Shown piece by piece: positions 1,831 to 33,593 of a stretch of 34,238 nucleotides of DNA. This DNA comes from an uncultured Treponema sp. (lineage in GTDB: Bacteria > Spirochaetota > Spirochaetia > Treponematales > Treponemataceae). The notes beneath the pieces were generated by a model. It was not told where the DNA came from. It searched no databases and saw only the letters and a list, made by a program, of their open reading frames with translations. A program made the position numbers and the translations under genes. The stretch covers positions 1 to 34,238 of the forward strand of contig CAMOWQ010000011.1 in NCBI GenBank assembly GCA_946628495.1, in the 5' to 3' direction. Position 1 is the stretch's first letter; each line of letters begins with the position of its first letter.

Positions 1831-2988
1831 ATGAAACTTTATGCAGCAGACTTAAAATGGTACGGACGCACACTCGACAACGACGGAATCAGATATTTTG
1901 ATTATTCATCATCAGCATTTGAATTCTGTTTTATCGGAAAAAAAGCCTCATGCATTCTGAAAAGCGACCCCGAAAACGGTGACAATACAAACCTTGGAGT
2001 TGTTGCAGTTTATGTTTCTGAATTGAATTCTCCAGATGAATATAAAGGCAATTCATATTGGGAACACCTTGCAGAAAATCCTGTTAAAAAAATAATTCTC
2101 GATAAAAAGGAAAACAACTGCATTCTGTATGAATCTGACACAGAAAAAACAGTTGTAATTAAAGTTATAAAAATAAGCGAAGCAGCCTTCGGATATGCTG
2201 GCTTAAAAGAAGTAGAAATTGATGGAAAGCAGATTTTGCCAAAAGTAAAGGCTTCGGATAAAGCTGCCGCAAAAAATGGCACTGCAGACAACTCAACAGG
2301 CAATGCACACTCAAAAAATGCCCCGAAAATCGAAATAATCGGTGATTCCATAACATGCGGCTACGGAATAGAAGGCGTTTGGGAAAAAGACACCTTTACA
2401 ACTTCTCAGGAACGCGCAGATAAATCTTATGCCTTCTTAACCGCCCGTGCCCTCAATGCAGAATTCCAGTGCGTAAGCTGGAGCGGCATAGGAATCATTT
2501 CAAAATACGTAGACGCTTCTGTAAACCTTCCAGACAATCAGATTGTAATGCCGCTCTTGTGGCCATATACAGACCGCAATCTTTCAAGAAAACTTGGAAT
2601 TGAACCGGAAATCTGGAATTCAGAACGATTTTCACCAGATATAGTAATCGTTCATCTTGGAACCAACGACGCAAGTTTTACAAGAAAAATCGAAGAACGG
2701 GTTTCTGCTTACATTTGCGGATTACGACAGTTTTTCGAAGCAATTCACAGGCGTTCTCCAAATGCAAAAATCTGCGCATGCCTTGGCGTAATGGGACAGG
2801 ATTTATGCGATCCTGCACAGAAAGCCCTGGAAGAATTCAGCATGGATTTCCCAAGCGTGCCTGTAAAGTTTGTAAAATTCCCTGTTCAGGATGAAAAGGA
2901 CGGCATCGCAGCAGACTGGCATCCATCCGCAAAAACACACGAAAAAATCGCAGGAATTCTTACAGAAGAACTTAAAAAGTGGAATTAA
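1831..2988 (+). CDS. SGNH-fold carbohydrate esterase, CE2-like acetylesterase
   Basis: A 385-aa protein with the two-domain plan of family CE2 deacetylases: an N-terminal beta-sandwich (about 1-140), a low-complexity A/K/N/S/T linker (about 141-163) and a C-terminal SGNH hydrolase domain. Visible catalytic features are GDSITCGYG with Ser173, HLGTNDAS with Asn279 in the oxyanion hole, and DWHPS with Asp362/His364. CE2 enzymes remove acetyl groups from plant polysaccharides or their oligosaccharides. There is no signal peptide, so I infer it acts in the cytoplasm on imported acetylated oligosaccharides. GGAG lies a normal distance before the ATG. It follows argA by 62 bp with no terminator seen between, but the functions are unrelated. 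Confidence 0.85.
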   Translation: MKLYAADLKWYGRTLDNDGIRYFDYSSSAFEFCFIGKKASCILKSDPENGDNTNLGVVAVYVSELNSPDEYKGNSYWEHLAENPVKKIILDKKENNCILYESDTEKTVVIKVIKISEAAFGYAGLKEVEIDGKQILPKVKASDKAAAKNGTADNSTGNAHSKNAPKIEIIGDSITCGYGIEGVWEKDTFTTSQERADKSYAFLTARALNAEFQCVSWSGIGIISKYVDASVNLPDNQIVMPLLWPYTDRNLSRKLGIEPEIWNSERFSPDIVIVHLGTNDASFTRKIEERVSAYICGLRQFFEAIHRRSPNAKICACLGVMGQDLCDPAQKALEEFSMDFPSVPVKFVKFPVQDEKDGIAADWHPSAKTHEKIAGILTEELKKWN

Positions 2989-3263: not shown

Positions 3264-3674
3264 ATGGGAATAAATAAAAACGAATTAAACTTAATGTTTG
3301 AAGCGGTTTATTCTCTTGCTAAAAAGTTGCAAGAGGGTAAAGGACTTAACGATACTGTCTATTTAATTTATCAAGCGAATGGACATTGGGGGTTCGTACC
3401 TAGGCTTGACGAAAATCAGAAGGAAGCGCCTGAACTAGGTAAAAAAGGTCGTTCCAAAACAACAGCCAGCTTAAATCACATAACATACACAGTAGAACGT
3501 TCTGAATTAAAAGAAGAAAAGTCAAAACAAGCCGTATTAGCAAATTTAAAAGCAGAAGTTGAGAAGCTCTGCAAGGACAACGTTATTTCTGAAACTGTTC
3601 TTGCCGGATACAATAATCATAAAGTAATTTGGTGTTTCGGTGACAAGCTTGCAGAAAAAGGTCTTAAAGTGTAG
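3264..3674 (+). CDS. Hypothetical passenger protein of the IS element (136 aa)
   Basis: Not recognised. A soluble, lysine- and glutamate-rich 136-aa protein with no signal peptide or membrane segment. Residues about 1-25 and 75-120 look helical, and a central aromatic stretch reads NGHWGFVPRLDE. It starts only 26 bp inside the left inverted repeat and has no clear ribosome-binding site, so the ATG at 3264 is the best available but unproven start. It faces away from the left end and converges with the 259-aa gene (16-bp gap). A role in transposition, or as cargo useful to the host, is possible; nothing in the sequence decides. Confidence 0.6.
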   Translation: MGINKNELNLMFEAVYSLAKKLQEGKGLNDTVYLIYQANGHWGFVPRLDENQKEAPELGKKGRSKTTASLNHITYTVERSELKEEKSKQAVLANLKAEVEKLCKDNVISETVLAGYNNHKVIWCFGDKLAEKGLKV

Positions 3675-3689
3675 CTTATTTTGAAGCAA

Positions 3690-4469
3690 TTATAACAGTC
3701 CGTCAATGTCATAATCTGACGGACTAACGCCAAAATAACTACTAACAGTTGCCAAGCTTTGGCTAGGAAGTTCTGTGTACCAATAGGGCTTCTTGTTTTT
3801 CATCTCTATTGGTAAATCTAATCCGTTCTTTGTTACCTTGCAAACCCTTGTATTATCAAAGCTTGAAAAATTATAATTTTCTTCAAAACAGATTACATAA
3901 GTGTCATAACCATTTTCTTCGTCTTCTGTAATTGGGGTATAATGCAACCCGTCCTTTGGAAATTCTTTCCAAGTAGAGTTACGTGCGTAGCTAAAAATGG
4001 TTTTACTCAACTCTTTATCCGTAATAGATTGTTCTTCAAAAATCTTATTTTTGAACATTAATTTCTTTTCAAGCTGGTGGTATCTAACCTTCAAAAGGCG
4101 ATTCATGTAATTATTATAGTAATCCATACTATAGACAGAAATACATCCTTTCATAAAAGAAAGTGGCAGTTTGTATGTGTTTATAGGTCTTATGGTTGTA
4201 AATTCATAGCAAAGATTGAGTTTTGTATTTAACCAGAGAAAATGATTCGGATGCTTTCGGTTTGGATTTAGCCATTTAGGTATGTAAATAATTTTAACGT
4301 CTTTCCAGTTTCTAAGCTTTGCTTTTATTGCTTCAAAAAGACAGTTTGAAATAAAAGGCTTAGAGTGTGGAGTCCCAGATTTAGCTAAAATTTCAGGTGT
4401 TTCTAGTTCTTTAATTGAAAACTGAAAAAGTACATTGTCTACTACTGTTGGAACTACGTTTTTTCGCAT
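3690..4469 (-). CDS. Hypothetical passenger protein of the IS element (259 aa)
   Basis: Not recognised. It is rich in Tyr, Asn and Lys, with no signal peptide, no convincing membrane segment and no catalytic motif I can name. Distinctive stretches are IIYIPKWLNPNRKHPNHFLW near residues 60-79 and a C-terminal SSYFGVSPSDYDIDGLL. A good ribosome-binding site (AGAGGT) precedes the ATG at 4467-4469. It lies between two genes of the opposite strand, all inside the transposable element. The 143-bp gap to the 170-aa gene must hold both divergent promoters. Confidence 0.65.
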   Translation of the reverse strand: MRKNVVPTVVDNVLFQFSIKELETPEILAKSGTPHSKPFISNCLFEAIKAKLRNWKDVKIIYIPKWLNPNRKHPNHFLWLNTKLNLCYEFTTIRPINTYKLPLSFMKGCISVYSMDYYNNYMNRLLKVRYHQLEKKLMFKNKIFEEQSITDKELSKTIFSYARNSTWKEFPKDGLHYTPITEDEENGYDTYVICFEENYNFSSFDNTRVCKVTKNGLDLPIEMKNKKPYWYTELPSQSLATVSSYFGVSPSDYDIDGLL

Positions 4470-4612
4470 TATTTTACCTCTTTTAGTTTAAATATTATAA
4501 TTCTTCATACATTTACCCTGTAAAACTATCTATTCAAAAAAACTCCATCTATTTAAGATAGTGCAGTTTTTGCATTTCGTAAAACTAAATTCATTAGTGA
4601 GGATATTAACTA

Positions 4613-5125
4613 ATGAAAATTGAATTTACAAAACTGCCAACTATTGGTGGAAAAATTCAAGTTAGCTTAGATGGTGGACAATCTTTCACAGATTATAACA
4701 TTGAAGACATACATGATTCTGGTATCCCTTTGGACGATAACCAGGATTATGAGAAAATCCAAATTCGAGGTCCGGCAAACCTTCTTAAAAATTTGAATGT
4801 ATTGAAAAACATAAAAATAGATGGAACAAACGGAAGCTCCTCAGAAAATACGATAGATAGCCGTTTTATAGAAATTGAAAGGTATGAGACCTTTGAGGAG
4901 GGACAAACCTATGTAGGTTATAGTAAAAACCCTACAAAAGGTGGCGGATGGCATGAGTCTTCTATGATTTTTGTAGAGGGACCATCTGGGTATTATTCCA
5001 TTCTATATGGTAATGATTGTATTTCATCAGTAGAAATAATTAGTTCAGATGTAAATGATTTTGAACGTAATGGTTATGTTCTTCCGCATCAAAGGATTTT
5101 TAAGCTTAATACACGTGGCTTTTAA
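4613..5125 (+). CDS. Hypothetical passenger protein of the IS element (170 aa)
   Basis: Not recognised. An acidic 170-aa protein with an apparent N-terminal beta-rich part: VSLDGGQSFTDYNIEDI near residues 18-34 resembles short beta-sandwich modules, and the EKIQIRGPANLL stretch follows. A second part (about 85-165) has VGYSKNPTKGGGWHESSMIF and GPSGYYSILYGND. No signal peptide, so it is not obviously exported. GTGAGGA about 10 nt before the ATG supports the start. Its stop codon directly abuts that of the convergent transposase, so the two are packed with no spare base, as expected of a co-evolved element rather than a chance capture. Confidence 0.65.
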   Translation: MKIEFTKLPTIGGKIQVSLDGGQSFTDYNIEDIHDSGIPLDDNQDYEKIQIRGPANLLKNLNVLKNIKIDGTNGSSSENTIDSRFIEIERYETFEEGQTYVGYSKNPTKGGGWHESSMIFVEGPSGYYSILYGNDCISSVEIISSDVNDFERNGYVLPHQRIFKLNTRGF

Positions 5126-5134
5126 TTAAGCCAC
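5115..5134. terminator. Hairpin between convergent passenger and transposase genes
   Basis: Stem GTGGCTT / AAGCCAC (7 bp) with a 6-nt AT loop spans both stop codons. T-rich tracts are weak, so it is at best a short bidirectional terminator or mRNA-end stabiliser. Confidence 0.4.
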
Positions 5135-6157
5135 TGGCAAAGGGCTTCTTTCGGAAAGTTCTTTAGATTTTACGGTTTTATTCGTGCAGAACACGAAAGC
5201 CGATAAGATTTCAGATTTCTTTTCGTAAGGGTCTTTTGCCCAGTTCACGAAATTATGCCATACCAAATAGTTATCCAGGTATTTGGTCGCTACGCCATGA
5301 AAGCGGACTATCCAAGTTTTCAAAATACTGTGATAACTGTTGATGTGCTGAACGTGAAAAATTCCTTTCTTAGATTTTCCAGTTTTTAACTGGATAAGTT
5401 CAAGTTTATTTTCCTTAGCAAACTTCTGATAAGAATGGTGTGCATCTGCACATAAAACTGAATTAATGGCGATGTGTCCAGAAAAAACTTCCGAAAGATT
5501 TTTAGTAGAAACACGTCCCAAGTTTGAAGGCTTTGCAATAGATAGCCCTTCTTGTGTAACTGCACAAGGAACGCATACTTTTTCGTGTGAAATACCACGG
5601 ATGTGTGTATCATTTCCACGCTTGTGTGCTTCACGCGGCATAATGAATCCGTCCATTCTGTGATTACCTTTAAATGATACTGCAAAGAAAGTTTCGTCGG
5701 CTTCTACTACGCCAGAAAGTTCTACGGAATTGTGCATTACTTGTAATGCGTCCAGAATCTTGTGTCGCCATTTGAAAGCTGTGTCTTTGCAGATGCCACA
5801 GATGGCTGCCGATTTTCTAACAGATAATCCAGAAATCATGCAGTCTACGTATTTCTGCCAGATTTCCAAAGTCTTCTTGCTTGAATGTGTGATTGTATTT
5901 GTAGATGCAGAAAAACTCTTTTTGCAGTCTGCACAGAAGAAACGCTGCATAGTTTTGTTGAAGCCGTTTCTGCGAACTTTTTTAGAATTGCAACGTGGAC
6001 AGAAAACGCCTGTACCGAAACGCTTTTCTGTGATAAAATCACTGAACGAAGCGTCAAAAAGTTTAAGGCTTTTGATTGCGTCGATTACTTTTCGTGCTTC
6101 GGCTTTTGGTAAAGACTGGATTTTGCTTATTATTTCTTATGTGATTACGTCTGTCAT
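5126..6157 (-). pseudogene. IS1595-family (ISXO2-type) transposase, stop codon at codon 7
   Basis: The frame encodes a DDE-type transposase of the ISXO2/IS1595 kind. It has a zinc-ribbon (CPRC...CADC), a helix-turn-helix-like SGLSVRKSAAICGI segment, VEADETFF (first Asp), CADAHHSYQKF (second Asp) and the family's C-terminal pattern HINSYHSILKTW...FHGVATKYLDNYLVWHNF. The natural ATG appears to be at 6155-6157, but codon 7 is TAA (6137-6139). From there the frame is open through the whole zinc-ribbon and catalytic domain. The first ATG after the stop (5948-5950, 274 aa) would cut the zinc-ribbon in half. I see no good alternative start between. Either a recent nonsense mutation or initiation at a rare codon. 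Confidence 0.85.
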
Positions 6158-6180
6158 AACACTTTATAACATAGTGCGTT

Positions 6181-6196
6181 TTTGACAAACGTCAAA
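6181..6196. promoter_or_regulatory. Inverted repeat upstream of the transposase
   Basis: TTTGACAAACGTCAAA has a 6-bp stem around AAAC and lies 24 bp upstream of the transposase ATG. The same interval holds TGTTATAAA, an extended -10-like element 5 nt before that ATG. The repeat is well placed for autoregulation. Confidence 0.35.
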
Positions 6197-6203
6197 TTTT
6201 CCT

Positions 6204-6228
6204 ACCACTTTTTTTTCAGAACATAGCC
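6204..6228 (-). repeat. Right terminal inverted repeat of the IS1595-family element
   Basis: Read inwards it begins GGCTATGTTCTGAAAA, the inverted partner of 3214-3238. It is followed outward by the second target duplication copy at 6229-6236 (TTCAGAAA). Confidence 0.85.
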
Positions 6229-6322
6229 TTCAGAAATAAACAGCCCTTCTATACCGTCAACAACCATCCTAAGCAGCAATTTCATTTTTTTGTTTTTCCG
6301 TAAAAGTCTTAAATTTTTGCAT
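6229..6322 (-). pseudogene. 5' part of the small gene interrupted by the IS element
   Basis: An ATG at 6320-6322 follows AGGAG by 5 nt and opens as MQKFKTFTEKQKNEIAA before a stop. A shift in the A-run after ...TEKQK would instead enter the frame MKLLLRMVVDGIEGLFIS, which continues into the 3' piece at 3205 once the IS is removed. The gene therefore has at least two frame breaks and the insertion. Intact, it would encode roughly 100 residues. It lay just downstream of the AAA-ATPase gene in the same direction. Confidence 0.55.
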
Positions 6323-6327
6323 AATAA

Positions 6328-6358
6328 CTCCTGTGAGAGCCCACCCGGCAGGCAGATT
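6328..6358 (-). repeat. Leader hairpin/ribosome-binding-site repeat, copy 1
   Basis: On the minus strand this reads TCTGCCTGCCGGGTGGGC, then CTCTCACAGGAG, just before the pseudogene ATG. It is the more diverged relative of the 34-bp units at 8093-8126 and 16436-16469. All three are GC-rich hairpins ending in CACAGGAG. Confidence 0.55.
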
Positions 6359-6361
6359 TTG

Positions 6362-7933
6362 TCACTCGATAATCCATTCATTCAGCTGTTCATCCGCACT
6401 GGAATAATTTGCTGCAATTTTCACAATTTTCCGACCATCAAGTTCTTCATTTTTATATGCAATCGGATAATCTTTACTGTTTATCTGCTCCATTGCTTCT
6501 TTTGCAGTTTTATCCATCTTGAACTCAAAAATATAAACTGCATCTTTTTCCCAGACAACAGCATCACTTCTGCCCTTACCGTTTTGCACTTCACACAGAA
6601 CAAACTCACCCATCAATTTAAAGATGAGCCAGACAAATGCCTGACAGTTTAATTCATAATGTCGCTGATTTGTCTGCTTTGGAGCGGCGGCGAATATATT
6701 ATTAATCCGCTGCATAAATTCATTTACTTTGCCGGCACAAAGCTCGCGAATAAAATTCAAAACTTCAATATTACTTGTTTTTTCTTCATAACCCGCATAT
6801 AACGGAATAAGATTTTCGTAAAACCCGTATTTTACTTCTTCATTCGGGAGTCCAAGCGTAAAGCTTCTAAAATCCTTGTCATAAGATTTTATAGTGATGT
6901 ATCCAGTCTGATAAAGCATTGGAACCGGGTCAGTTGCTGTAAGGCGATAATTTTCTAGAGTTCTATAACCAATTTCAATTTCATTTTCAAGGGTTGTGAA
7001 ATCAAAATCAATATCTCGAATCATTTTTGTAAGGAATGTTGGAGTACCTGTTGAGAACCAGTAACTGCCAAAAGATTTATTGAAGAATGCATTCATCAGA
7101 CTGAATGGATTATAAATATCTTCTCTGGTATCTGGTGAAAAATGATATCCATCATAATTCTTTTTAAGCTCAGAAAGGCACTGTTCTTCAGTCATATCAT
7201 TATTTTGTGCCATTTCTTTGATTTCCGGAACAAATCTTTCTTTAAGTTCAGACTGTGATATTCCGCAAACTGTAGAAAAATCATCGGAAAGTGAAATATC
7301 ATTCAGATTATTCAAATCAGAAAAAATACTTACCTTATCAAACCTCGTAACTCCAGTAATAAATGCAAACCTGATATATTTATCTTCGCTTTTCAGATTT
7401 CCATAAAAACCTTTGAGGGCATCACGAATTTCGCCTTTAAGATTAGAATCAATCACATTCTGCAAAAGTGGTTTGTCATATTCATCCACCAGAACAACAA
7501 CCTGATTTCCTGTTTTTTCAAAAGCAGCTTTTATAAGATTTCTAAAACGTATTGCAATATCTTTTGATTCTGTACGCTTTCCATATAACTCTTCATATTC
7601 AGAAAGCATGTCATCCATCTGTATGAGTAAATCTTCATAGGTTTTATAATTTTTGCCAGTAAAATCCAGATAAATGACAGGATATTGTTTCCATTCAGTT
7701 TCAGTTTCTGAGATTGAAAGTCCATCAAATAAGTCTTTACGGCCTTCAAAATAACTGCGCAAAGTGGAAAGAAAAAGCGATTTACCAAAACGACGGGGAC
7801 GACTCAGAAAATAAGGTTTTCCTACACGCACCAGTTTTTCAATAAACTGAGTTTTATCAACATAAATACAGTTCTTTGTGCGGAGTTCTTCAAATGTCTG
7901 AATGCCAATCGGCAGGTTTCGTCTTTCGCTCAT
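6362..7933 (-). CDS. AAA-ATPase-like protein with C-terminal PD-(D/E)XK nuclease-like domain
   Basis: A 523-aa member of the large AAA-ATPase_like / PDDEXK_9 family common in gut anaerobes. It opens with the family signature LPIGIQTFEELRTKNCIYVDKT. It has a Walker A SRPRRFGKSLFLSTL near residue 45, a Walker B VVVLVDEYDKPLL near 145 and the FITGVTRFDKVSIFSDLNNL stretch. The C-terminal domain has GRSDAVV...YIFEFKMDKTAKEAMEQI, the D-(E)FK core of a PD-(D/E)XK nuclease-like fold. The physiological role of this family is unsettled; it is often multicopy and proposed to be mobile or defence-related. I chose the ATG at 7931-7933, where the conserved signature begins, over an upstream one that would add 25 unlike residues. 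Confidence 0.85.
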   Translation of the reverse strand: MSERRNLPIGIQTFEELRTKNCIYVDKTQFIEKLVRVGKPYFLSRPRRFGKSLFLSTLRSYFEGRKDLFDGLSISETETEWKQYPVIYLDFTGKNYKTYEDLLIQMDDMLSEYEELYGKRTESKDIAIRFRNLIKAAFEKTGNQVVVLVDEYDKPLLQNVIDSNLKGEIRDALKGFYGNLKSEDKYIRFAFITGVTRFDKVSIFSDLNNLNDISLSDDFSTVCGISQSELKERFVPEIKEMAQNNDMTEEQCLSELKKNYDGYHFSPDTREDIYNPFSLMNAFFNKSFGSYWFSTGTPTFLTKMIRDIDFDFTTLENEIEIGYRTLENYRLTATDPVPMLYQTGYITIKSYDKDFRSFTLGLPNEEVKYGFYENLIPLYAGYEEKTSNIEVLNFIRELCAGKVNEFMQRINNIFAAAPKQTNQRHYELNCQAFVWLIFKLMGEFVLCEVQNGKGRSDAVVWEKDAVYIFEFKMDKTAKEAMEQINSKDYPIAYKNEELDGRKIVKIAANYSSADEQLNEWIIE

Positions 7934-7939
7934 ACTAAT

Positions 7940-7948
7940 ATTATACCA
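7940..7948 (-). promoter_or_regulatory. Extended -10 promoter, leaderless start of the AAA-ATPase gene
   Basis: On the minus strand TGGTATAAT is a perfect extended -10, and 6 nt separate it from the ATG. Transcription should start on the ATG. No Shine-Dalgarno sequence is present. The geometry is the same as at argA. Confidence 0.5.
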
Positions 7949-8092
7949 CAGAACATTAGTAATTACACCACAAAACATTTTACACTGCCTGACACACCTC
8001 TTCTCCACAAAATTCCAAATTTTTTAATAAAAATGTACTTTTTTTTGATATTCAATCTAATCTGTATAGAATGTATACTTAACTAATTAAAA

Positions 8093-8126
8093 CACCGGTC
8101 GCTTGCCAGGCGGCCTTACACAGGAG
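8093..8126 (+). repeat. Leader hairpin/ribosome-binding-site repeat, copy 2
   Basis: A 34-bp GC-rich unit that matches 16436-16469 at 30 of 34 positions. Stem GTCGC/GCGGC with a 7-nt loop, then CTTACACAGGAG, which supplies the ribosome-binding site for the gene at 8136. The T in the stem forms a G-U pair, so folding is conserved although the sequence varies. Confidence 0.65.
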
Positions 8127-8135
8127 AATGTGACA

Positions 8136-9602
8136 ATGAATAAAGTTTTCTTAAAAGAATGTCCATGCGCACTTGATATGGGCGACGGAAGCGAACGCGG
8201 TCTTTATGTAAATCAGGATTATATTTTGCAGAAAATGCGAAAAATTCACCGCGGTATAAGCCTTATGTATACCTATTATCCAAAAGACAAAACCTGGCCT
8301 TTGCGTGCAAGCGTTGCATGTCCTCAGGACACTCCTACAGGAGCATGGGATTATCCTTACGAAGATTATTTTCCATACCGTGGCGGTGTAGAAGGCAAAC
8401 ACGACGATGAACCATTCTGTTTTATGAAAGAAATTCGTCAGCGTGGTATGGATGTTGTTCTTACCCTTACAATTGACCCAGACTTAACTGAAGAAGATTT
8501 AATTCCTATTGCAAACGATTTAAGACCTTACGGCCGCATTCTTTTACGTGTTAATCATGAATGTACGGGAACCTGGTTCTGCTTTAATAAACGTGCAACT
8601 TATCAGAAACTTGCTGATTTCTTCGTTCTTGTCTGCAAAGTAATGCACGAACATGCACCAAACGTTAAAGTTATTCTTTGTGCAGGTATGTATGAAGATG
8701 CCACAGGCAAACTCGAAATGGAAGATATTTTTCTGGAAGCACACAAGGCAGCCGATATCTGGTCGGGTGATAAATACCTTGCCCTTCACTGGGGTTGGCC
8801 TGTTGATGTTGCAACAAAGGATACAAAAAATTACTGCTGTTATGATGTAGATGCAGTTTACGACACGGCAAAGAAAACCCTAAAACGTCTGCGCGAAATT
8901 ACAGGTCAAGATAAACCAATGGTTCTTTCCGAACTTAATGCCGACGGTGATGTTACAGGCGCTTATGAACAGGCAAATATGATGCGTCATTTTATGGAAC
9001 GCCTTGAACAGGATGATGAAAAATGGCTTTCTGCTTTTACATTCTATCAGTTCCGCGATGACGGCCGCCTTGGTCTTGAAATCACAGATCCTAACAATCA
9101 TGATGTTGGAATTGAACAGCCTATTCTTGCAAGCTACCGAAAATCATTGCACAGGGAATTCTTTAGTCAGAAGCTTGTTTCCGATAAGCCTATAGAACTT
9201 CCTGCAAAAATGCGCTGGGCAAGTTCCGAAGATGCCGAAGGCGTAGAAATTGATGTTAAAGTAGAAAAAAATCCACATTATGCAGAATTGTATTTTGAAG
9301 ATAATCTTAAAGATATGAATCTTATGATTGAATTTGGCGGTTACTGGTTCTATAAAGCACCAGGCGTTAAATTTGTTGATTTGATGAGTTATTTCTTTGA
9401 AAATCCTGTTGAATCTGCAAAAACGTTCAAACTTAGATTCTTTGCACCTCCTGCAGACGGTTTAAATCATCCACAGGATGGAAGCGACCCTTACACAGCG
9501 GCAATTGGCGAATGGATGTACAACTATGAAACTGAACTTCCTGCCTTGCCAAAAATCCGCATTGAATACGAGCCAGTTTCTTTATTCAAACACTACGACT
9601 AA
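8136..9602 (+). CDS. TIM-barrel glycoside hydrolase-like protein (clan GH-A type)
   Basis: A 488-aa protein that I read as a clan GH-A-like (beta/alpha)8 barrel (about 1-360) followed by a beta-rich C-terminal domain (about 370-488). RILLRVNHECTGTWF near residues 140-154 resembles the strand-4 acid/base Glu motif of GH26-type enzymes, and KPMVLSELNADGD near 270-282 resembles the strand-7 nucleophile. LALHWGWPVD and FTFYQFRDDGRLGLE are further strand-end motifs. I cannot place it in a named GH family and the substrate is unknown. There is no signal peptide, so it is probably cytoplasmic. The ATG at 8136 follows AGGAG by 9 nt; that ribosome-binding site is part of the leader repeat. Confidence 0.68.
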   Translation: MNKVFLKECPCALDMGDGSERGLYVNQDYILQKMRKIHRGISLMYTYYPKDKTWPLRASVACPQDTPTGAWDYPYEDYFPYRGGVEGKHDDEPFCFMKEIRQRGMDVVLTLTIDPDLTEEDLIPIANDLRPYGRILLRVNHECTGTWFCFNKRATYQKLADFFVLVCKVMHEHAPNVKVILCAGMYEDATGKLEMEDIFLEAHKAADIWSGDKYLALHWGWPVDVATKDTKNYCCYDVDAVYDTAKKTLKRLREITGQDKPMVLSELNADGDVTGAYEQANMMRHFMERLEQDDEKWLSAFTFYQFRDDGRLGLEITDPNNHDVGIEQPILASYRKSLHREFFSQKLVSDKPIELPAKMRWASSEDAEGVEIDVKVEKNPHYAELYFEDNLKDMNLMIEFGGYWFYKAPGVKFVDLMSYFFENPVESAKTFKLRFFAPPADGLNHPQDGSDPYTAAIGEWMYNYETELPALPKIRIEYEPVSLFKHYD

Positions 9603-12965: not shown

Positions 12966-13022
12966 CAAACATTCATTCGTTATCATTTATTCTATTTTTT
13001 TCCTAATTAACAGGTGAATTAT

Positions 13023-13391
13023 ATGACAGCTAACTTACACAGTATCGAAAACGAAAAAATCTTAACACAGGAAGAAAATCATATCGTTCTTGAATTTGTA
13101 ATTCCAGAAGCTAGTGATTTTTTTGACGGACATTTTCCAGAATACAAACTTCTTCCTGCAGTTGCCCAGTTCGAAATAGTAACTCGTTTTTCGCGAAAAT
13201 ATCTTAACACACAAAGATTCGTTCCAAGCATCAAAAGAATTAAATTTTCCGCACCAATCCGTCCGGACACAAAAGTTACTTTGGAACTTACAAAAAATAC
13301 AACAAAAAATACGGTTGCTTTTTCAATTGTAGATTCAAACGTTAAAGATAAAACTTATTCATCAGGTTCTTTTAACTATCTTGAACAATAA
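13023..13391 (+). CDS. Hot-dog-fold dehydratase, ApeI-like
   Basis: A 122-aa single hot-dog domain. The FDGHFPEYKLLPAVAQFE segment (about residues 34-51) matches the ApeI/FabA-FabZ-like signature FDGHFPxxPxLPGVAQ, including the catalytic-type His37; Ala replaces the usual Gly after LP. RIKFSAPIRPDTKVTLEL near 75-92 is the family's second core strand region. In aryl polyene clusters this protein dehydrates 3-hydroxyacyl-ACP during chain growth. AGGTG sits correctly before the ATG at 13023; a GTG nine bases earlier overlaps that site and is rejected. It is the first gene after the ACP terminator. Confidence 0.8.
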   Translation: MTANLHSIENEKILTQEENHIVLEFVIPEASDFFDGHFPEYKLLPAVAQFEIVTRFSRKYLNTQRFVPSIKRIKFSAPIRPDTKVTLELTKNTTKNTVAFSIVDSNVKDKTYSSGSFNYLEQ

Positions 13392-13435
13392 TTGTTAATT
13401 TACAAGCTGAAGCAGAGTTTATGAGGAGGATAAAA

Positions 13436-14071
13436 ATGAAAAAAATTACAAAAGTATTTATTTCGGTTCTAACAGGATTTTATCTTACGACAAGTTTATC
13501 TGCTCTTGATTTACAACAAGTTACAAATCAGCTTGCAAAGCATCCTATTACAACAGGAACTTTTTCGCAGGTTAAGACAATGAGTACAGCCAAAGGAAAC
13601 AGAAATCTTAAATCATCTGGCTCATTCATTTTTAGCCTTGACGGAATAATGTGGAAAACAGAAAAACCGTTTCCTTCATCAATCGCCGTTACAAAAAAAG
13701 CCGTAATACAGACTGCCGCAGACGGAACAACAACTGTAATCGATACCTCTGGTAATCAGGTTTTTGCAAGCATTGCTTCTTCACTTACAGCTGTTTTTTC
13801 AAATGATTTAACAGAACTTCAGAAAATTTTTAACACTGATTTTGCTGAAACAAAAGACGGCTGGACTATCACTTTGACACCAAAAGATTCTACTATTGCA
13901 TCTTCACTAAAATCAATAAAAATGACAGGCATTTCTGATTCTGACTATGCAACATTGAATTCCATCCAGATTCAGGAAAATGAATCAAGTTCTATAACTT
14001 ACAATTTCCAAAATCACAAGTATCCACAGGAGCTTACTGCCGATGAGAAAAATTTCTTTACATCTAAATAA
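13436..14071 (+). CDS. LolA-like outer-membrane lipoprotein carrier, periplasmic
   Basis: A 211-aa exported protein with signal peptide MKKITKVFISVLTGFYLTTSLSA and a likely cut after TSLSA. The mature part has the LolA pattern: a GTFSQVKTMSTAKGNRNLKSSG strand region, a FSLDGIMWKTEKPF motif like the LolA PGxFRWxxxxP core, and a repeated beta-strand layout. LolA homologues are a constant part of aryl-polyene/flexirubin clusters, where they are thought to help carry the lipid-like product across the periplasm with an MMPL partner. The strong GAGGAGG site favours the ATG at 13436 over one five codons upstream. The last 29 bp overlap the exporter gene, implying coupled translation. Confidence 0.8.
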   Translation: MKKITKVFISVLTGFYLTTSLSALDLQQVTNQLAKHPITTGTFSQVKTMSTAKGNRNLKSSGSFIFSLDGIMWKTEKPFPSSIAVTKKAVIQTAADGTTTVIDTSGNQVFASIASSLTAVFSNDLTELQKIFNTDFAETKDGWTITLTPKDSTIASSLKSIKMTGISDSDYATLNSIQIQENESSSITYNFQNHKYPQELTADEKNFFTSK

Positions 14072-16418
14072 ATTTTCAAACAAACATTTTCTTTTGATAT
14101 GGCTTATTTTTCATATTGCCATTCTAACCTATTTTGCATCTTCCTTTATTGCACATCGCGGAAATATTTCTATTGATGCAGATTTGTTCAATATTTTCCC
14201 GGATCCAACAACAAACGAAGCCATTAGAAAAGCCGATGATTCTCTTCTGGAAGCAACGGCTCAGAATATTTATATTCTTGTTTCTCATAAAGATTTTGAC
14301 ACTGCAAAAAAAACCGCAGAATCAGTTTATACACAATTAAACGGAAGCGACAATTTTAAAACCCTTTCGCTTTATACAAATTTTTCCAGTGTTGAAGATA
14401 TTTATGATTATCTTTATAAATACCGCTACAATCTTTTGGACGACGAAACAATCAATAAAATCAATGCTGATGGCGGCGAATCGTTTGCAATGAATGCATT
14501 GGCAACAGCTTACAGCGGTTTTACCCTTCTTCCTCTTGATGATTTGGATTCTGACCCGTTCATGCTTTCTGAACATAACCTGAACACTTATCTTAATCTG
14601 GTTCAGTCAACAGGAACTTCTATGTCTCTTAAAGACAATGTTCTTGCATCAGAAAAAGACGGTGTCTGGTATATAATGCTTACAGGCATTCTCAGCAAAA
14701 AAGGTGCCGCACTCGCAAATAAAAACAACGGTGTTCAGGAAATTTACGACGTTTGTCTGCCTTTGGAAAATGATGAAACAAAATTTGTATTTTCCGGTAC
14801 ACCTTTTTCAAGTCATCAAAATTCAAACTCTGCAAACAAAGAAATTACGATTATTTCGACAGTTTCTATTCTTATTGTAATAATTCTTCTGTTTACAGTA
14901 TTTGGCTCTCCAATTCCAATTTTATTTTCACTGCTTTCAATTTTACTTTCGATTGTAAGTGCAATTCTTATGACAATGGGCTTTTTCCACAAACTGCACA
15001 TTCTTACTCTGGTTTTTGGAACATCGCTTATTGGTTCATGTATTGATTACAGCATTCACTTTTTTACACATTGGGCTGGCAACAAAAAATTAAATTCCGG
15101 TGATGAAATTCGTAAACATCTTTTGCCTGGTCTTACCCTCGCAATCGTTTCGTCGGTTTTGTGCTATGCAATCCTTATGTTTGCGCCTTTCAATCTTTTA
15201 AAACAAATGTCGCTGTTTTCACTTACAGGTTTAACAAGTTCTTTCCTTACAACAATAGGTCTTTTCCCATATATTAAGATGCCGCAGGGCGAACGAAAAA
15301 TTAAAGTTTCTGCAATTATTAAAAACTCAAATCATCCGACAGCTAAAAAATGGGTTGGACGTGCAGTAATCACATCATTTTTTGTAATTTCAATCGGTTC
15401 TATTTTGATTTTCCACAAACGCCTTACTATCGAAAATGATGTTAATAAACTTTATAAAGATAAAGGTCGTCTTGCAATTGATTTGCCAAAAGCATACGAA
15501 ATTCTTAATTATGATCCAACTACATGGCTTATTGTAAGCGGCGAAACTCCAGAAGATGTATTCCAGCTTGAAGAAAGAATGAGGAATAAAATTGACCATG
15601 ATGAACATAAAAATCCTTATATTAGTCCGACAATTTTTATTCCTTCAATTGAGCATCAGAAAAAATCTCGTGCAGCATGCTTAAAACTGCTTTCACGTTC
15701 CGAAGAACAGCTTGAATATCTTGGATTTGACCCTGCTGATTCTAAAAAAATTCTTTCTGATTTTTACTCTAAACAGAATGATTTTATTACTATTGATGAC
15801 CCTGCAATTCCAGAAGTTGTAATGTCTCTTATTTCCATTACATGGCTTGGACAGATAAACGGAACTTATTATTCGGTAATTCTTCCAAATAATTCGGATA
15901 ATGCTTCATTTTATAAAGAACTTGAAAAAGAAAGCCCGAATCTGCATTTTACAAATAAACTTTATGATATGAGCCGCGATCTTGATAAACTTACTATTCT
16001 TGAATTAAAGTTCTTCTCGATTGCATACATCATAATTTTTATTATTCTTAAACTTTTTTACAAACTCAAACAGGCTCTAAAAATTATTTCAATTCCTCTT
16101 TTGATTGTTCTTATAACTACAGCAGTTTACGTAATTTTCAATATCAAACTGGAATTCTTTACAACAACAGGGCTTATTCTGGTGTTTGGACTTGGACTGG
16201 ATTATATAATCTATATGATGGAAAACGAACAGCACAAAGGTTCAAACACAAGTACGCTTGAACCATTTGCAATAATGCTTTCATTCATTACAACGATTAT
16301 TTCATTCGGTGCACTTTCTTTAAGTTCATTCCCTCCGGTTCATTTAATGGGTCTGTCTATTTTCCTTGGACTTACTACATCGTATACAAGTACAATGTTC
16401 TACGACAGGTCTTTATAA
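14043..16418 (+). CDS. MMPL/RND-family exporter, inner membrane
   Basis: A 791-aa membrane protein with the duplicated RND plan. TM1 lies near residues 14-38, followed by a large periplasmic domain (about 40-270) and a five-helix bundle near 272-405. TM7 is near 435-457, with a second periplasmic domain (about 460-665) and a C-terminal five-helix bundle to the end. The TM4-type stretch GTSLIGSCIDYSIHF and its second-half copy GLGLDYIIYMME carry the Asp/Tyr pair typical of the proton relay in MMPL proteins. In Ape-like clusters this transporter moves the polyene lipid out of the inner membrane. It overlaps the LolA gene by 29 bp. AGGAG lies 10 nt before the ATG. Confidence 0.88.
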   Translation: MRKISLHLNKFSNKHFLLIWLIFHIAILTYFASSFIAHRGNISIDADLFNIFPDPTTNEAIRKADDSLLEATAQNIYILVSHKDFDTAKKTAESVYTQLNGSDNFKTLSLYTNFSSVEDIYDYLYKYRYNLLDDETINKINADGGESFAMNALATAYSGFTLLPLDDLDSDPFMLSEHNLNTYLNLVQSTGTSMSLKDNVLASEKDGVWYIMLTGILSKKGAALANKNNGVQEIYDVCLPLENDETKFVFSGTPFSSHQNSNSANKEITIISTVSILIVIILLFTVFGSPIPILFSLLSILLSIVSAILMTMGFFHKLHILTLVFGTSLIGSCIDYSIHFFTHWAGNKKLNSGDEIRKHLLPGLTLAIVSSVLCYAILMFAPFNLLKQMSLFSLTGLTSSFLTTIGLFPYIKMPQGERKIKVSAIIKNSNHPTAKKWVGRAVITSFFVISIGSILIFHKRLTIENDVNKLYKDKGRLAIDLPKAYEILNYDPTTWLIVSGETPEDVFQLEERMRNKIDHDEHKNPYISPTIFIPSIEHQKKSRAACLKLLSRSEEQLEYLGFDPADSKKILSDFYSKQNDFITIDDPAIPEVVMSLISITWLGQINGTYYSVILPNNSDNASFYKELEKESPNLHFTNKLYDMSRDLDKLTILELKFFSIAYIIIFIILKLFYKLKQALKIISIPLLIVLITTAVYVIFNIKLEFFTTTGLILVFGLGLDYIIYMMENEQHKGSNTSTLEPFAIMLSFITTIISFGALSLSSFPPVHLMGLSIFLGLTTSYTSTMFYDRSL

Positions 16419-16435
16419 AAAAACAGGCCGACAAC

Positions 16436-16469
16436 CACCGGCCGCCTGCCGTGCGGCCTTACACAGGAG
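16436..16469 (+). repeat. Leader hairpin/ribosome-binding-site repeat, copy 3
   Basis: A 34-bp unit matching 8093-8126 at 30 of 34 positions. Stem GCCGC/GCGGC with a 7-nt loop, then CTTACACAGGAG as ribosome-binding site of the DUF3261-like gene. It is GC-rich in an otherwise AT-rich intergenic stretch. Confidence 0.65.
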
Positions 16470-16480
16470 TTATTTGAGTT

Positions 16481-17155
16481 ATGATGAAAAAGATTTTACT
16501 TCGCGATAAACATTTTAATTTTTCAAATAGGCTCATTAATGCCAGACATTTTTTACCGGCCGTTTGTGCTTCAATTATGATTTCTTTTGTTTCCTGCGCA
16601 ACAGTAAAACATCTGCCTGGCAATATCGACCCTGTTTTTATTACAAATACAAAATCTGTTAATCTTTTAGCACCAGAAAATATTTCTACACTGCTTGATT
16701 CAATGATTCTTCTTGAAATTAAATTCGGCAGTGAAAATTTTTCCGTTCTTTCTTATGTTCAGGCTGATGAAAGCGGCATTTTCATAACTCTCATGAATGA
16801 TTTTGGAACAGACATGGGAACTTTGGAATACGATGGAAATTCAATTCAACTTGACTGCCAGTTATTCCCAAGCAACATCAAACCTGAATATATTGTCGCT
16901 GATTTTCAAAATGCATTTTATACCGCAGAATCCCTTACCACAAATTTAAAGGCATCGCGTCTTACATTTACAGAAGAAACTGCCGCTGCAGATACAGATG
17001 ACAATTCAAACTCAACCGTCACTCAAGACCCTGTAACTGTCAGGAAAATATTCAGCGGTTCAAAACTAATTGAAGAAATCACAATTGAAAACGCAAAAAT
17101 CAATATAAAAAATTATCTTCGCGGATATGAATACAATCTGACAGTCGAAGAATAA
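16481..17155 (+). CDS. DUF3261-like lipoprotein of the Ape-like locus
   Basis: A 224-aa protein with a long basic N-region, a hydrophobic core (about residues 24-37) and a lipobox ISFVSC with Cys39, so probably a membrane-anchored lipoprotein. The mature part fits the DUF3261 pattern seen in aryl polyene clusters: a strand pair FSVLSYVQADESGIFITLMN near 87-106, then GTDMGTLEYDGNSIQL, then a YIVADFQNAFYTAESL segment near 141-156. A 20-residue acidic low-complexity insert (about 168-186) precedes the final strands. The role is unknown; the usual place, after the MMPL exporter, suggests product transport or assembly in the envelope. Family assignment is from pattern memory. Confidence 0.68.
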   Translation: MMKKILLRDKHFNFSNRLINARHFLPAVCASIMISFVSCATVKHLPGNIDPVFITNTKSVNLLAPENISTLLDSMILLEIKFGSENFSVLSYVQADESGIFITLMNDFGTDMGTLEYDGNSIQLDCQLFPSNIKPEYIVADFQNAFYTAESLTTNLKASRLTFTEETAAADTDDNSNSTVTQDPVTVRKIFSGSKLIEEITIENAKINIKNYLRGYEYNLTVEE

Positions 17156-17197
17156 AATTTGAAAAAATTGGCAATGCTATATAAGGAGTATTAATTT

Positions 17198-17692
17198 ATG
17201 GAAGCAAAAAAATTACCACAGTTTATTGATCACGATGAACTTATTAATCTGCTGCCTCATAAAGGAAAAATGTTTCTGCTTACCCGTGTTATTCAGCATG
17301 ATACAAACAATCATACTATAACAAGCGAATACGACATTACCGAAAATTGTATTTTCTACGAGCCTGAATTTGACGGTGTACCAACTTGGGCAGGCTTTGA
17401 ATTTATGGCACAAGGCATTTCCGCATTAACAGGAATTACTAACCGCGAAAAAGGCCGCGAACCATTGCCAGGATTTATTCTTTCGGTTATGGAATTTAAA
17501 GCAGATATCGGTTATCTTAAAAACAACACGACAATCAAAATGAAAATTCGTGAAGATTATCGTGAAGAAACAACTCACATTTACAGATATATTTGTGAAC
17601 TTTATGCCACAAAGGATGATGAAAAACCTTCTGTAACAGCAAAAATCTCCGTTATGGAAACAGAAGACATTCATTCTTTATTCGGTGATTAA
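17198..17692 (+). CDS. Hot-dog-fold dehydratase, ApeP-like
   Basis: A 164-aa hot-dog protein. LLPHKGKMFLLTRVI near residues 18-32 and VPTWAGFEFMAQGISALTG near 61-79 match the ApeP/FabZ-like family, with His21 and Glu68 as candidate catalytic residues. LPGFILSVMEFKADIGYL near 93-110 is the third conserved block. With the ApeI-like protein it would give the pathway two distinct dehydratases, as in aryl polyene synthesis. AAGGAG lies 10 nt before the ATG. Directly followed by the ketoreductase gene. Confidence 0.82.
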   Translation: MEAKKLPQFIDHDELINLLPHKGKMFLLTRVIQHDTNNHTITSEYDITENCIFYEPEFDGVPTWAGFEFMAQGISALTGITNREKGREPLPGFILSVMEFKADIGYLKNNTTIKMKIREDYREETTHIYRYICELYATKDDEKPSVTAKISVMETEDIHSLFGD

Positions 17693-17743
17693 TCATAATC
17701 ATTAAACAACCTCAAATTGAGGCATACACAAGGAGAAAAAACT

Positions 17744-18487
17744 ATGAACGAAGACAAAAAAATTCTTGTTACTGGTGCAAGCGGTGGAATCGGACGTGCA
17801 ATTGCTGTAGAAGCTGCTAAAGCCGGATATTATGTAATCTGCCATTATAACGGAAGCAAGGGCAAGGCTGAAGAAACATTAGCTCAGATAAAGGAAAATG
17901 GTGGACAGGGTGAACTTATTCAGTTTGATGTTTCTAACCGCGAAGACTGCAAGGCAAAACTTGATGAAATTACTGCAAAATATGGAGCCCTTTGGGGAAT
18001 TGTAAACAATGCAGGAATTACACGCGACAACACATTTGCAGCCCTTTCTGGTGATGATTGGGATAAAGTTATCCACACAAACCTCGACAGTTTCTACAAT
18101 GTAATTAATCCACTTATTATGCCTATGGCAAGCCGCAAGAACAAACGCGGTGGACGAATCATTACAATTTCTTCTGTTTCAGGCGTAAACGGAAACCGCG
18201 GACAGACAAACTATTCTGCAGCAAAAGCCGGAATTATCGGTGCAACAAAAGCACTTGCCGTTGAACTTGCAGGCCGCGGAATTACCTGTAATGCAATTGC
18301 ACCAGGCGTTATCGAAACAGAAATGACTAAGGCAATTGACCCACAAGTTTACGAAATCATCATGAGTACAATTCCTATGAAACGTGCCGGAAAACCCGAA
18401 GAAATTGCATCTGCTGCAGTATTCCTTCTGAGCGAAGGTGCAGCATATATTACACGTCAGGTTCTTACTATCGACGGTGGAATGTAA
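17744..18487 (+). CDS. 3-oxoacyl-ACP reductase, FabG/ApeQ-like
   Basis: A 247-aa classical short-chain dehydrogenase. It has the nucleotide-binding TGASGGIG near residues 10-17, NNAGITRDN near 87-95, the catalytic Ser in ITISSVSG near 140-147, the Tyr-x-x-x-Lys in NYSAAKAG near 157-164, and APGVIETEM near 188-196. The C-terminal IDGGM is typical of FabG. It reduces 3-oxoacyl-ACP with NADPH before dehydration. Placement after the ApeP-like gene matches the ApeP-ApeQ-ApeR order, so a pathway-specific reductase is more likely than the housekeeping FabG. The ATG at 17744 follows AAGGAG; a TTG nine codons upstream is rejected. A small hairpin (CCTC/GAGG, 17710-17722) lies just before the ribosome-binding site. 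Confidence 0.9.
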   Translation: MNEDKKILVTGASGGIGRAIAVEAAKAGYYVICHYNGSKGKAEETLAQIKENGGQGELIQFDVSNREDCKAKLDEITAKYGALWGIVNNAGITRDNTFAALSGDDWDKVIHTNLDSFYNVINPLIMPMASRKNKRGGRIITISSVSGVNGNRGQTNYSAAKAGIIGATKALAVELAGRGITCNAIAPGVIETEMTKAIDPQVYEIIMSTIPMKRAGKPEEIASAAVFLLSEGAAYITRQVLTIDGGM

Positions 18488-18494
18488 AGAATTC

Positions 18495-18531
18495 AAGATG
18501 CCTTATAAGTTAATACCTTATAGGGCATCTT
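18495..18531 (+). terminator. Long hairpin after the ketoreductase gene
   Basis: A 15-bp stem (AAGATGCCTTATAAG with its complement ending GGGCATCTT, one G-T pair) and a 5- to 6-nt loop, 8 bp past the stop codon. There is no T tract, so it may stabilise the mRNA end or act in Rho-dependent termination. Confidence 0.5.
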
Positions 18532-18829
18532 AAGTGTTAATACCCCATAATTCATTCCTTAATGTCTATTTTTCCTGAAAACATTTTTTAATACGATTCT
18601 TTCTTAAAAATTTCTAATAATTAAAATCAAAAATTTTCTTTTTAATAAAAAAATTCTGTTATATCTTATTGAAATATATTTTATATCTTAATTATAATTA
18701 AAGCTAATAATAAAGGGCTGTCTAATAAATAAGAGATACATTGATTGGCTTTTTCGAAACTGTCACATAAATAAGTGTATACTCTAAACTTATTAATCAT
18801 CCCTTTATAAAATCAAGTTTCCTGAAACT
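18532..18829. promoter_or_regulatory. AT-rich control region before the chemoreceptor gene, with a 42-bp-spaced direct repeat
   Basis: No gene is seen here. Two direct repeats of form CTGTCNNATAAATAAG lie at 18718-18733 and 18760-18775, exactly 42 bp (four DNA turns) apart, so they present the same face to a bound protein. TATACT at 18778-18783, directly after the second repeat, is a candidate -10. This suggests the chemoreceptor has its own regulated promoter. Confidence 0.4.
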
Positions 18830-18859
18830 ATGAATTTTCAATATCAAGGAGAGAGAATT

Positions 18860-21013
18860 TTGAAAAATCATAAAATCACTATTTCTACAAAATTTTCATC
18901 TAGTACTATTCTGGTAATAATTGCAATTGTTGCAATTTCTCAATTAACAACAAGTTTTTTCTTTTCTAAAAACTGCCTTGAAAATTTTTATGGCGGTGCA
19001 AAATCAAATTTATCAGAATTTTCAGATTCGATAACGATGTTTTATTCAGCAAAAGAAGTTGAACTTAATGTTTTTACCGACTCTGATGCAATAAAAGCAG
19101 CCGACGATACTATTCATTCATACATAAATGAAAACGGAACAATTCATATCACCAGCTACGAAAAAAGTCCAACCGAAGAAGCAATCCGAAAAGTCTGTAA
19201 AATTATTGCTAAACAGGACAGCGATATTGCAGAAATTTACATTGGTACAAAATGGGGCGGTTACGCAACAAACTCCGACGGCACAATGAATGGCGGATAC
19301 GATCCTAGAAAACGAGGCTGGTACGAAACGGCCTTAAAAGGCAATGGCGGCGTAATGATTACCGATGCATTTGCTTCCACAATCGGGACTACTGTTGTAG
19401 GAATTACCCGCTGTGCCTATGATGAAGCTGGAGCTTTTATTGGAAATACATCAATTGAAGTTGCCCTAGATACATTAACAAACATTCTAAAATCAATGGA
19501 TTTTGGCGAAAACAGTTTTGTAATGATGATTCAAAATGATGGAACAATTTTAGCAGATACTCTTGATTCAAAAAATAATTTCAAAAATATCTCCGAAATT
19601 AATCTTCCTGAATTAAAAAATATTCTTTCATCAAAAGAAAATTCAAATACAATTAATATAAATGGCAAACAATTCTTTACCGAATACATCACAAATAAAA
19701 AAACCGGCTATCAAATTATTGCATTTAGTCCAAAAGAAGTTGTTTTCGAAGCCTTTTATAAAACCCTTAAAATTACAATTTTAATCTGTTCTATCATCGG
19801 AATTTTAATTGCAATTGCAACCGCTATAATTACAACTCATATAATGAAGCCTTTAATATCCATTCACGACGGAATCAGCCTTACAGCAGAACAAATTGCA
19901 AATGGTAATGCCGACCTTACAAACCGTCTTAAAATTACTTCGCATGATGAAATTGCCGATGTTGCGGTAAGCTTTAATATGTTCTCCGATAAACTTCAGG
20001 ATATCATTCAAAGCATGAAAGATTCAAAAATTTCGCTGAATCAAGCAGGTGGAAAACTTACAAATACCACAAGAGATGCTATGAAAGCAATTGCGCAAAT
20101 CAACAAAAATATTCTGACTCTAGATAGTGATTTAAGAAGCCAGAACAATAGCGTTAAGCAAACTTCTCAATGCATTACAAAAATTCTGGAAAGCATCAGC
20201 TCTCTTAAAGAACTTGTAACAGAACAGGCAAAATCGGTAAGCAATGCCTCAGCTGCCGTAGAACAGATGATTAAAAATATTAGTAATGTAAATCTTTCTG
20301 TAGATATAATGGCACAATCTTTTGGAAGGCTCGAACAGGATGCACAAAGCGGAGCTAAAACTCAGGAACAGCTACAACAGCAAATTGCAGAAATTGAAAA
20401 CCAGTCAAAATTATTAAGTGAAGCTAACGCTGTAATTGCAAATATTGCAAGTCAAACTAACCTTCTTGCCATGAATGCCGCAATCGAAGCTGCACATGCA
20501 GGAGAAGCAGGAAAAGGATTTGCCGTCGTTGCAGATGAAATTAGAAAACTTTCCGTTACTTCATCAACACAATCAAAAACAATCGGAGACCAGCTTAAAC
20601 ATATTCAGGCAACAATTGGAACTGTAGTTCAGGCAACTCAAAACGGAGTAAAAGGATATTCAACACTTGCAGATGAAATTCATGAAACAGACAACCTTGT
20701 TCGACAGATTAAAACTGCAATGACAGAACAGCAGCAAGGTTCTGCACAAATTACCGATGCACTTCATGGCTTAAACGAAAGCACATTAGAAGTTCAACAA
20801 GCCTCTAAAGAAATGACTGATGATAGTCACATCATTATTGAACAGGTAACAACTTTGCAGCAAAAAACACAGGCTATGCAAATCAGTATGGACGAAATGA
20901 GTTCAAATTCAGCAAAGATTGATACAACAGGCTCTGCCCTTTCGGAAATTTCTTCGCTTATGGAAAAATCAATCAGCGAAATTGGAAAACAGGTAGATCA
21001 ATTTAAGGTTTAA
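18860..21013 (+). CDS. Methyl-accepting chemotaxis protein with dCache sensor
   Basis: A 717-aa chemoreceptor. TM1 lies near residues 12-33, followed by a periplasmic double-Cache domain (about 35-290) with [12 protein letters not shown] and VMITDAF, and TM2 near 298-320. A HAMP domain (about 321-375) and a cytoplasmic signalling helix bundle to the end follow; the CheA/CheW tip is [20 protein letters not shown]. The DPRxRxWY piece is part of the amino-acid-binding dCache motif, but the following Tyr appears to be Phe, so the ligand is uncertain. AAGGAG sits 8 nt before a TTG at 18860, favoured over an ATG 10 codons upstream with no ribosome-binding site. It has its own promoter and terminator and divides the Ape-like locus. 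Confidence 0.9.
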
Positions 21014-21111
21014 TTTCTGAACCATACAATTGTGACAGGACACCAAATTTTACAATATTTTTAGAATGCATTTGTCCTGAATTTCGCATTAGTTGTTCTT
21101 TATGTCAATTT

Positions 21112-21148
21112 AGTGTAATCTATTCTATAGGTTACACTTTTTTATTTT
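21112..21148 (+). terminator. Rho-independent terminator between chemoreceptor and ketosynthase genes
   Basis: An 11-bp stem (GTGTAATCTAT / ATAGGTTACAC, one G-T pair) with a 3-nt loop, followed by T6-A-T4. It isolates the chemoreceptor unit, so the ketosynthase needs a further promoter or read-through. Confidence 0.85.
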
Positions 21149-21167
21149 AAATAAGGATGTATTTATT

Positions 21168-32923: not shown

Positions 32924-33310
32924 TTAGAGTTTTTGTACGGTTATTTCGTCGATATAATCAAAATCGCTGTCTGCCGTAATAAGAGTTAAATCTGCTGCAT
33001 GGCAAGTTGCGGCAATCCAGATATCATTTTCTGGAATAGGTTTTCCTTTTGCTTTTAACGAGGCTTTTATTTTTCCATAACTTTTTGAAACTTCTAAATC
33101 TGGATAAATAACTTTCATCTGTTCACAAAAGTTAAAATAATTTTCTTTGTTAAAATCAGTTTTTTTAGAAAGCTCCGCTACATACATCAATTCTCCTACA
33201 GAAATAGATGAAATATACAGATTATCCATATCATCAAAAAGAGAAAAAAGTTCTGTTTCGCCTTTGAAAAAACGGATAATCACATTTGTATCTACAAGCT
33301 TACCATTCAT
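32924..33310 (-). CDS. vapC: PIN-domain toxin, VapC-like ribonuclease
   Basis: A 128-aa PIN-domain nuclease that, when free of its antitoxin, cleaves RNA (tRNA or rRNA in studied cases) and stops growth. The acidic metal site is complete: Asp in LVDTNVII near residue 7, Glu in VGELMY near 41, Asp in ENDIWIAAT near 94 and Asp in TADSDFDYI near 112. Its ATG (33308-33310) lies inside the end of the antitoxin gene (overlap 11 bp), so the two are translationally coupled. A second ATG two codons upstream is also possible. The longer frame to 33364 is not supported by homology. Confidence 0.9.
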   Translation of the reverse strand: MNGKLVDTNVIIRFFKGETELFSLFDDMDNLYISSISVGELMYVAELSKKTDFNKENYFNFCEQMKVIYPDLEVSKSYGKIKASLKAKGKPIPENDIWIAATCHAADLTLITADSDFDYIDEITVQKL

Positions 33311-33593
33311 TTTCATCAACCTTGCGACACTCCGCAACAGCAGCTTCCATTTGAGCAGCCTCATCTTTATCTATACTTCCAAAAAAATCTTTGACTGATT
33401 TTTGATTGGAAAGGCTTGCACGTAAAACTAGATTTTCATATTCATCAATTGGAAGCACAACCGCCTGCATTTCGTTATTGCGGATAATTGCAATTTTTTT
33501 TAGTTTTCTATTTGTCAATTCCGTCAGGAAGTTTGAAAACTGGCGAACGAGTTGAGTTGCAGAGACAATTTCTTTTTTTTCAAATGTCATCAT
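33300..33593 (-). CDS. vapB: Phd/YefM-type antitoxin of the VapC pair
   Basis: A 97-aa antitoxin. The N-terminal Phd/YefM DNA-binding part reads KEIVSATQLVRQFSNFLTEL, then KKIAIIRNNEMQAVVLPIDEYENLV. The C-terminal part (about 58-97) is acidic and helical and should wrap the toxin. It binds and inhibits the downstream PIN toxin and represses its own promoter. AGGTG precedes the ATG. A Phd-type antitoxin with a PIN toxin is a common pairing; the symbol is used in that general sense. Confidence 0.88.
   Translation of the reverse strand: MMTFEKKEIVSATQLVRQFSNFLTELTNRKLKKIAIIRNNEMQAVVLPIDEYENLVLRASLSNQKSVKDFFGSIDKDEAAQMEAAVAECRKVDENEW

Follow-up and report, generated by a model that had tools for sequence, protein, structure and literature searches.

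The closest described systems lie in clan GH-A of the glycoside hydrolases. Family GH26 (PF02156; e.g. Clostridium thermocellum Lic26A, 2bv9/2bvd, and Cellvibrio japonicus Man26A) has the clan GH-A barrel with a glutamate nucleophile at beta7, an R-x-x-HE-x-x-G-x-W-F sequence with its HE acid/base motif, and a beta6 D-x-x-[SG]-x-D-x-Y pattern; the protein described here resembles it in all of these. GH113 also belongs to clan GH-A (PMC9032380). In Faecalibacterium, a cytoplasmic GH113 and a CE2 esterase process imported manno-oligosaccharides (PMC8262883). The GH113 of the F. prausnitzii mannan locus is a second point of reference, being, like the protein described here, a cytoplasmic clan GH-A enzyme partnered with CE2 (PMC8262883).

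The window is the whole analysed stretch of 34,238 nucleotides from an uncultured Treponema sp. (contig CAMOWQ010000011.1). GH* is the label used here for the protein of the open reading frame at 8136–9602 and for the family around it.

The GH* gene and its predicted fold

The GH* gene (8136–9602, forward strand) encodes 488 aa and is present as a single copy within its own genome. The frame opens with an ATG at 8136 and closes with a stop at 9600–9602; a Shine-Dalgarno sequence, AGGAG (8122–8126, forward strand, read directly), ends 9 nt upstream of the ATG. A longer alternative start is offered by a TTG at 8103; the proteins of relatives start at or near the ATG position. The original prediction had named this frame and quoted two motifs from it, and both are found as quoted: RVNHECTGTWF at residues 138–148 and VLSELNADGD at residues 263–272.

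AlphaFold2 modelling with the family alignment gives a confident structure, both for the full-length protein (pLDDT 91.2, pTM 0.92) and for the barrel modelled alone (pLDDT 92.8, pTM 0.91). The models (pLDDT 91–93) place a (beta/alpha)8 catalytic barrel at residues about 12–343 (8169–9164), followed by a predicted C-terminal beta domain of about 130 residues (residues about 346–477 by DSSP of the model; 9171–9566), which is the two-part architecture first read from the sequence. The beta4 motif RVNHECTGTWF (8547–8579) carries E142, the predicted acid/base, which is invariant and aligned to the GH26 glutamate. The beta6 motif DIWSGDKY (residues 207–214; 8754–8777) resembles GH26 DIIGEDIY, and its Y214 is the likely helper tyrosine. 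The beta7 motif VLSELNADGD (8922–8951) carries E266, the predicted nucleophile, likewise invariant and aligned to the GH26-type nucleophile.

In the model, E142 follows beta4 and E266 follows beta7, the clan GH-A layout. With the (beta/alpha)8 barrel and the invariance of both glutamates, this places GH* in clan GH-A and bears out the catalytic pair originally proposed; Foldseek matches also belong to clan GH-A almost throughout. E142 and E266 are invariant across 42/42 homologues, among which the lowest identity is 43%, and such constancy at this divergence indicates a selected feature rather than chance. They are among 14 acidic residues invariant in the 42 sequences; R138, H141 and many acidic or aromatic pocket residues are invariant as well. 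That GH* might be a catalytically dead GH-A barrel serving binding or regulation is scarcely credible against the invariance of E142, E266, R138, H141 and so much of the pocket.

The window protein has no signal peptide, and a hydrophobic N-terminus was found in none of the 42 members; the same test detected a hydrophobic N-terminus in 20 of 23 mostly secreted GH26-type ORFs, used as a positive control. The cytoplasmic placement in the original prediction agrees with this result.

Relation to GH26 and other glycosidase families

Profile searches leave GH* unassigned. The window protein matches no family in Pfam or NCBIfam, and 31 members searched against Pfam return no match of any kind, GH113 included; PF02156 is silent even at E<=10, so that no member reaches its gathering score. 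Searches of PDB sequences with the window protein and with family profiles found no solved homologue. A beta-agarase (8h97) that appeared at E=0.1 with the first family profile was lost with the second and was rejected as a sequence relative. A description of the family was looked for in the literature, and none was found.

With the full model, the top Foldseek match in the PDB is GH26 2bv9 (E=2.8e-10), followed by GH79, GH86, GH53, GH30 and GH39; with the barrel alone, it is GH26 2bvd (E=2.6e-10), followed by GH53, GH39, PslG, GH113 and GH10. The structure prediction suggested as a check on the original reading thus yields a confident GH-A barrel with GH26 as its top structural neighbour. In these alignments, TM-scores are 0.39–0.65 and identity is about 12%, values that are at the level of clan mates and not of family members. 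Matches in the Foldseek viral library are mainly GH5-type phage barrels.

The active-site motifs point in the same direction. The beta4 pattern R..HE..G.W[FY] occurs in 42/42 GH* members and 4/6 classical GH26 sequences, vs 0/28 GH5 and 0/30 GH10; the beta6 pattern D[IVM].[SG].[DN].Y occurs in 37/42 and 5/6, again vs 0/28 and 0/30. Because both patterns were written after the sequences had been seen, their weight rests on the GH5 and GH10 controls. In profile–profile comparison (hhalign), the full set of 23 divergent Lachnospirales proteins that match PF02156 aligns with GH* at a probability of 87% (P=3.7e-6) over 199 columns, with both catalytic glutamates aligned; a subset of this set, picked partly by score, together with two scan hits gives 97% (P=3.9e-10). 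The match to classical GH26 reaches 11% and spans the motif only; controls give 0.8% for GH5, 5.6% for GH10 and at most 0.4% for reversed alignments. A scan of 391 Clostridia genomes with the family profile returned only two matches outside the family, both PF02156 proteins. The earlier claim that the protein matches no nameable family therefore stands for the profile databases (no Pfam match for any member, no NCBIfam match for the window protein) and gives way on kinship, where motifs, Foldseek and profile comparison point to GH26.

GH* might accordingly be read as a divergent member of GH26, e.g. a cytoplasmic oligo-mannanase or lichenase, listed or listable there by CAZy. The common beta4 and beta6 motifs and the top rank of GH26 among structural neighbours speak for such membership; it is nevertheless unlikely, since PF02156 misses every GH* member searched even at E<=10, the profile match to classical GH26 is confined to the motif, and the low TM-scores and identity are joined by an extra C-terminal beta domain. 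GH* appears to be a GH26-like sister family and not a GH26 member, because the GH26 profile failed and the domain layout differs.

Distribution, CE2 partner and gene neighbourhood

A genome scan recovered 35 loci with GH* relatives, at 62–81% identity in gut and rumen Treponema/Spirochaetaceae and 46–49% in Lachnospiraceae/Oscillospiraceae. The gene is present in 13 of 36 gut Treponema genomes (the window genome and 12 of 35 others of the genus) and absent from all 23 genomes of other genera in the same order (59 relatives scanned). Outside Treponema, carriers number 20 of 392 genomes for the Lachnospirales-type order and 5 of 391 for a sample of the class Clostridia; plasmids, phages and viral contigs searched held no relative. 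Over this range the family is coherent, at 43–80% identity. In a midpoint-rooted tree without an outgroup, Treponema GH* forms one supported clade within the Clostridia diversity, and this nesting suggests transfer from Clostridia into Treponema.

The linked partner of GH* in the window is a CE2-like acetyl esterase gene (1831–2988, forward strand), whose product has both the CE2_N domain (PF17996, E=3e-10) and a GDSL/SGNH domain (PF13472) above cut-off. Of 31 Treponema loci, 23 have CE2 beside GH* or close to it, mostly in convergent orientation, at times codirectional or on the opposite side of GH*. An orthologue (45–61% identity to the window copy) is found in 11/13 GH*-positive vs 0/23 GH*-negative Treponema genomes (Fisher p=1.3e-7, uncorrected for genome relatedness), and the two positive genomes that lack CE2 and GH130 alike are incomplete MAGs. 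The pair has stayed together despite rearrangements, which points to a functional link. A CE2 match is absent from 11 of the 21 GH*-positive Clostridia genomes tested; CE2 is therefore not an obligate partner, and a link beyond Treponema was rejected. The proposed CE2 association thus holds within Treponema and is not universal.

In the window, about 5.1 kb lie between CE2 and GH*, and the orientation of GH* is the reverse of that seen in most relatives. The interval (3264–8008) contains a transposase of IS1595/ISXO2 type (5126–5950) and a second gene of the AAA-ATPase-like/PDDEXK_9 kind, with a PD-(D/E)XK domain. The inversion and the transposase-bearing interval indicate that a rearrangement or insertion happened there. 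Near GH* in other Treponema, two large ORFs (L025:713–5707, 1664 aa; L032:10327–13131, 934 aa) have no Pfam match at E<=1e-5.

GH* does not lie within a sugar-utilisation operon. Across 24 Clostridia loci no conserved partner gene was found around it: neighbours are mostly housekeeping, unrelated genes, and the gene stands alone. In single loci, the neighbourhood includes a gene for GH31 or GH43.

Elsewhere in the window, a gene run at 13014–22433 resembles an aryl-polyene or related fatty-acyl pathway. It includes an ApeI-like dehydratase, a LolA-like carrier, an MMPL exporter, a DUF3261 lipoprotein, a FabA-like dehydratase and a ketoreductase, with a ketoacyl synthase further on (identified by reading) and a methyl-accepting chemotaxis-like protein (18830–21013) in between. 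A PIN-domain protein (PF01850) at 32924–33364 is possibly the toxin of a toxin-antitoxin pair.

Proposed role and comparison with known systems

The genomes that carry GH* are fibre degraders. GH10 is present in 13/13 GH*-positive vs 8/23 GH*-negative Treponema; GH5 at E<1e-50 is present in 21/21 positive vs 7/20 negative Clostridia, with the threshold set after the data were seen and the negatives hand-picked. GH130, a marker for mannan, follows GH* in Treponema (11/13 positive vs 5/23 negative) but shows no such association in Clostridia (16/21 vs 11/20). Common ancestry and lifestyle are confounders in all such correlations with genome content. Oligosaccharides derived from xylan, glucan or mannan are all possible candidate substrates.

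Specificity for beta-manno-oligosaccharides, with GH* standing in place of GH113 beside CE2 and GH130, would fit the CE2 pairing, which parallels the Faecalibacterium mannan pathway (PMC8262883), and the GH130 counts in Treponema. It is rather doubtful, given that GH130 is absent from the two incomplete Treponema MAGs and from five GH*-positive Clostridia and that GH10 and GH5 track GH* better; since GH130 is not tightly linked to GH*, a mannan-only role is unlikely. An endogenous substrate, namely a cytoplasmic glycan (storage or envelope precursor) rather than oligosaccharides imported from fibre, would suit a stand-alone gene beside housekeeping genes, without transporters or PUL partners and with no tie to CE2 in Clostridia. 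This is distinctly improbable, as the patchy range is limited to fibre-degrading gut anaerobes and the gene apparently moved from Clostridia into Treponema.

The preferred reading is that GH*, as a sister group of GH26 within clan GH-A, is probably a retaining beta-glycosidase that works in the cytoplasm and would act on imported hemicellulose or beta-glucan oligosaccharides; catalysis, retention, substrate and cooperation with CE2 are all predicted features. It builds on what was observed for GH*: the predicted fold, conservation of the catalytic pair, the absent export signal, the GH26 relatedness and the CE2 co-occurrence. The distant kinship with GH26 and the usual presence of an acetyl-removing esterase as a neighbour make it probable that GH* degrades imported fibre fragments. 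Under the proposed mechanism, a double displacement with E142 as acid/base and E266 as nucleophile would cleave short oligosaccharides of plant fibre (hemicellulose or mixed beta-glucan) after their import. The CE2 esterase, which is co-inherited with GH* in Treponema, would remove the O-acetyl substituents of these oligosaccharides there and so open them to cleavage by GH*.

GH* is probably annotated as hypothetical in most genomes. If the prediction holds, it supplies an unannotated intracellular step of fibre breakdown in rumen and horse-gut Treponema and in Lachnospirales, as well as a defined enzyme–esterase pair; with its GH26-like motifs set in another two-domain frame, it would also help to show how families of clan GH-A split. 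A bolder and tentative reading, with chances short of even, makes GH* the founder of a new clan GH-A family in CAZy, a sister of GH26. In the cytoplasm, it would have a specificity (e.g. decorated, freshly deacetylated hemicellulose oligosaccharides) covered by no described family, and fibre-degrading Treponema and Lachnospirales would have come to share it via gene transfer.

Compared with the F. prausnitzii GH113 mannan loci, the GH* locus is without an ABC transporter, GH36 and GH130. GH39, GH79, GH30 and GH86 have the same layout of barrel and beta domain and give strong Foldseek matches, whereas identity to them is 8–13%, no profile matches, and the GH26-type HE motif belongs to GH*. Unlike GH26, GH* lacks a Pfam match and a GH26-like W-rich beta8, carries the extra C-terminal beta domain, is cytoplasmic, and has full-length profile similarity to divergent PF02156 proteins only. 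Four of these divergent secreted Clostridia proteins (L096, L116, L159 and L160) are likewise uncharacterised. Most of this group differ from GH* in their hydrophobic N-termini, and in the members read the beta4 glutamate stands without the preceding GH26 histidine and no C-terminal domain of the GH* type is seen; their profile nevertheless aligns with that of GH* from about beta2 to alpha8, with both catalytic glutamates in register.
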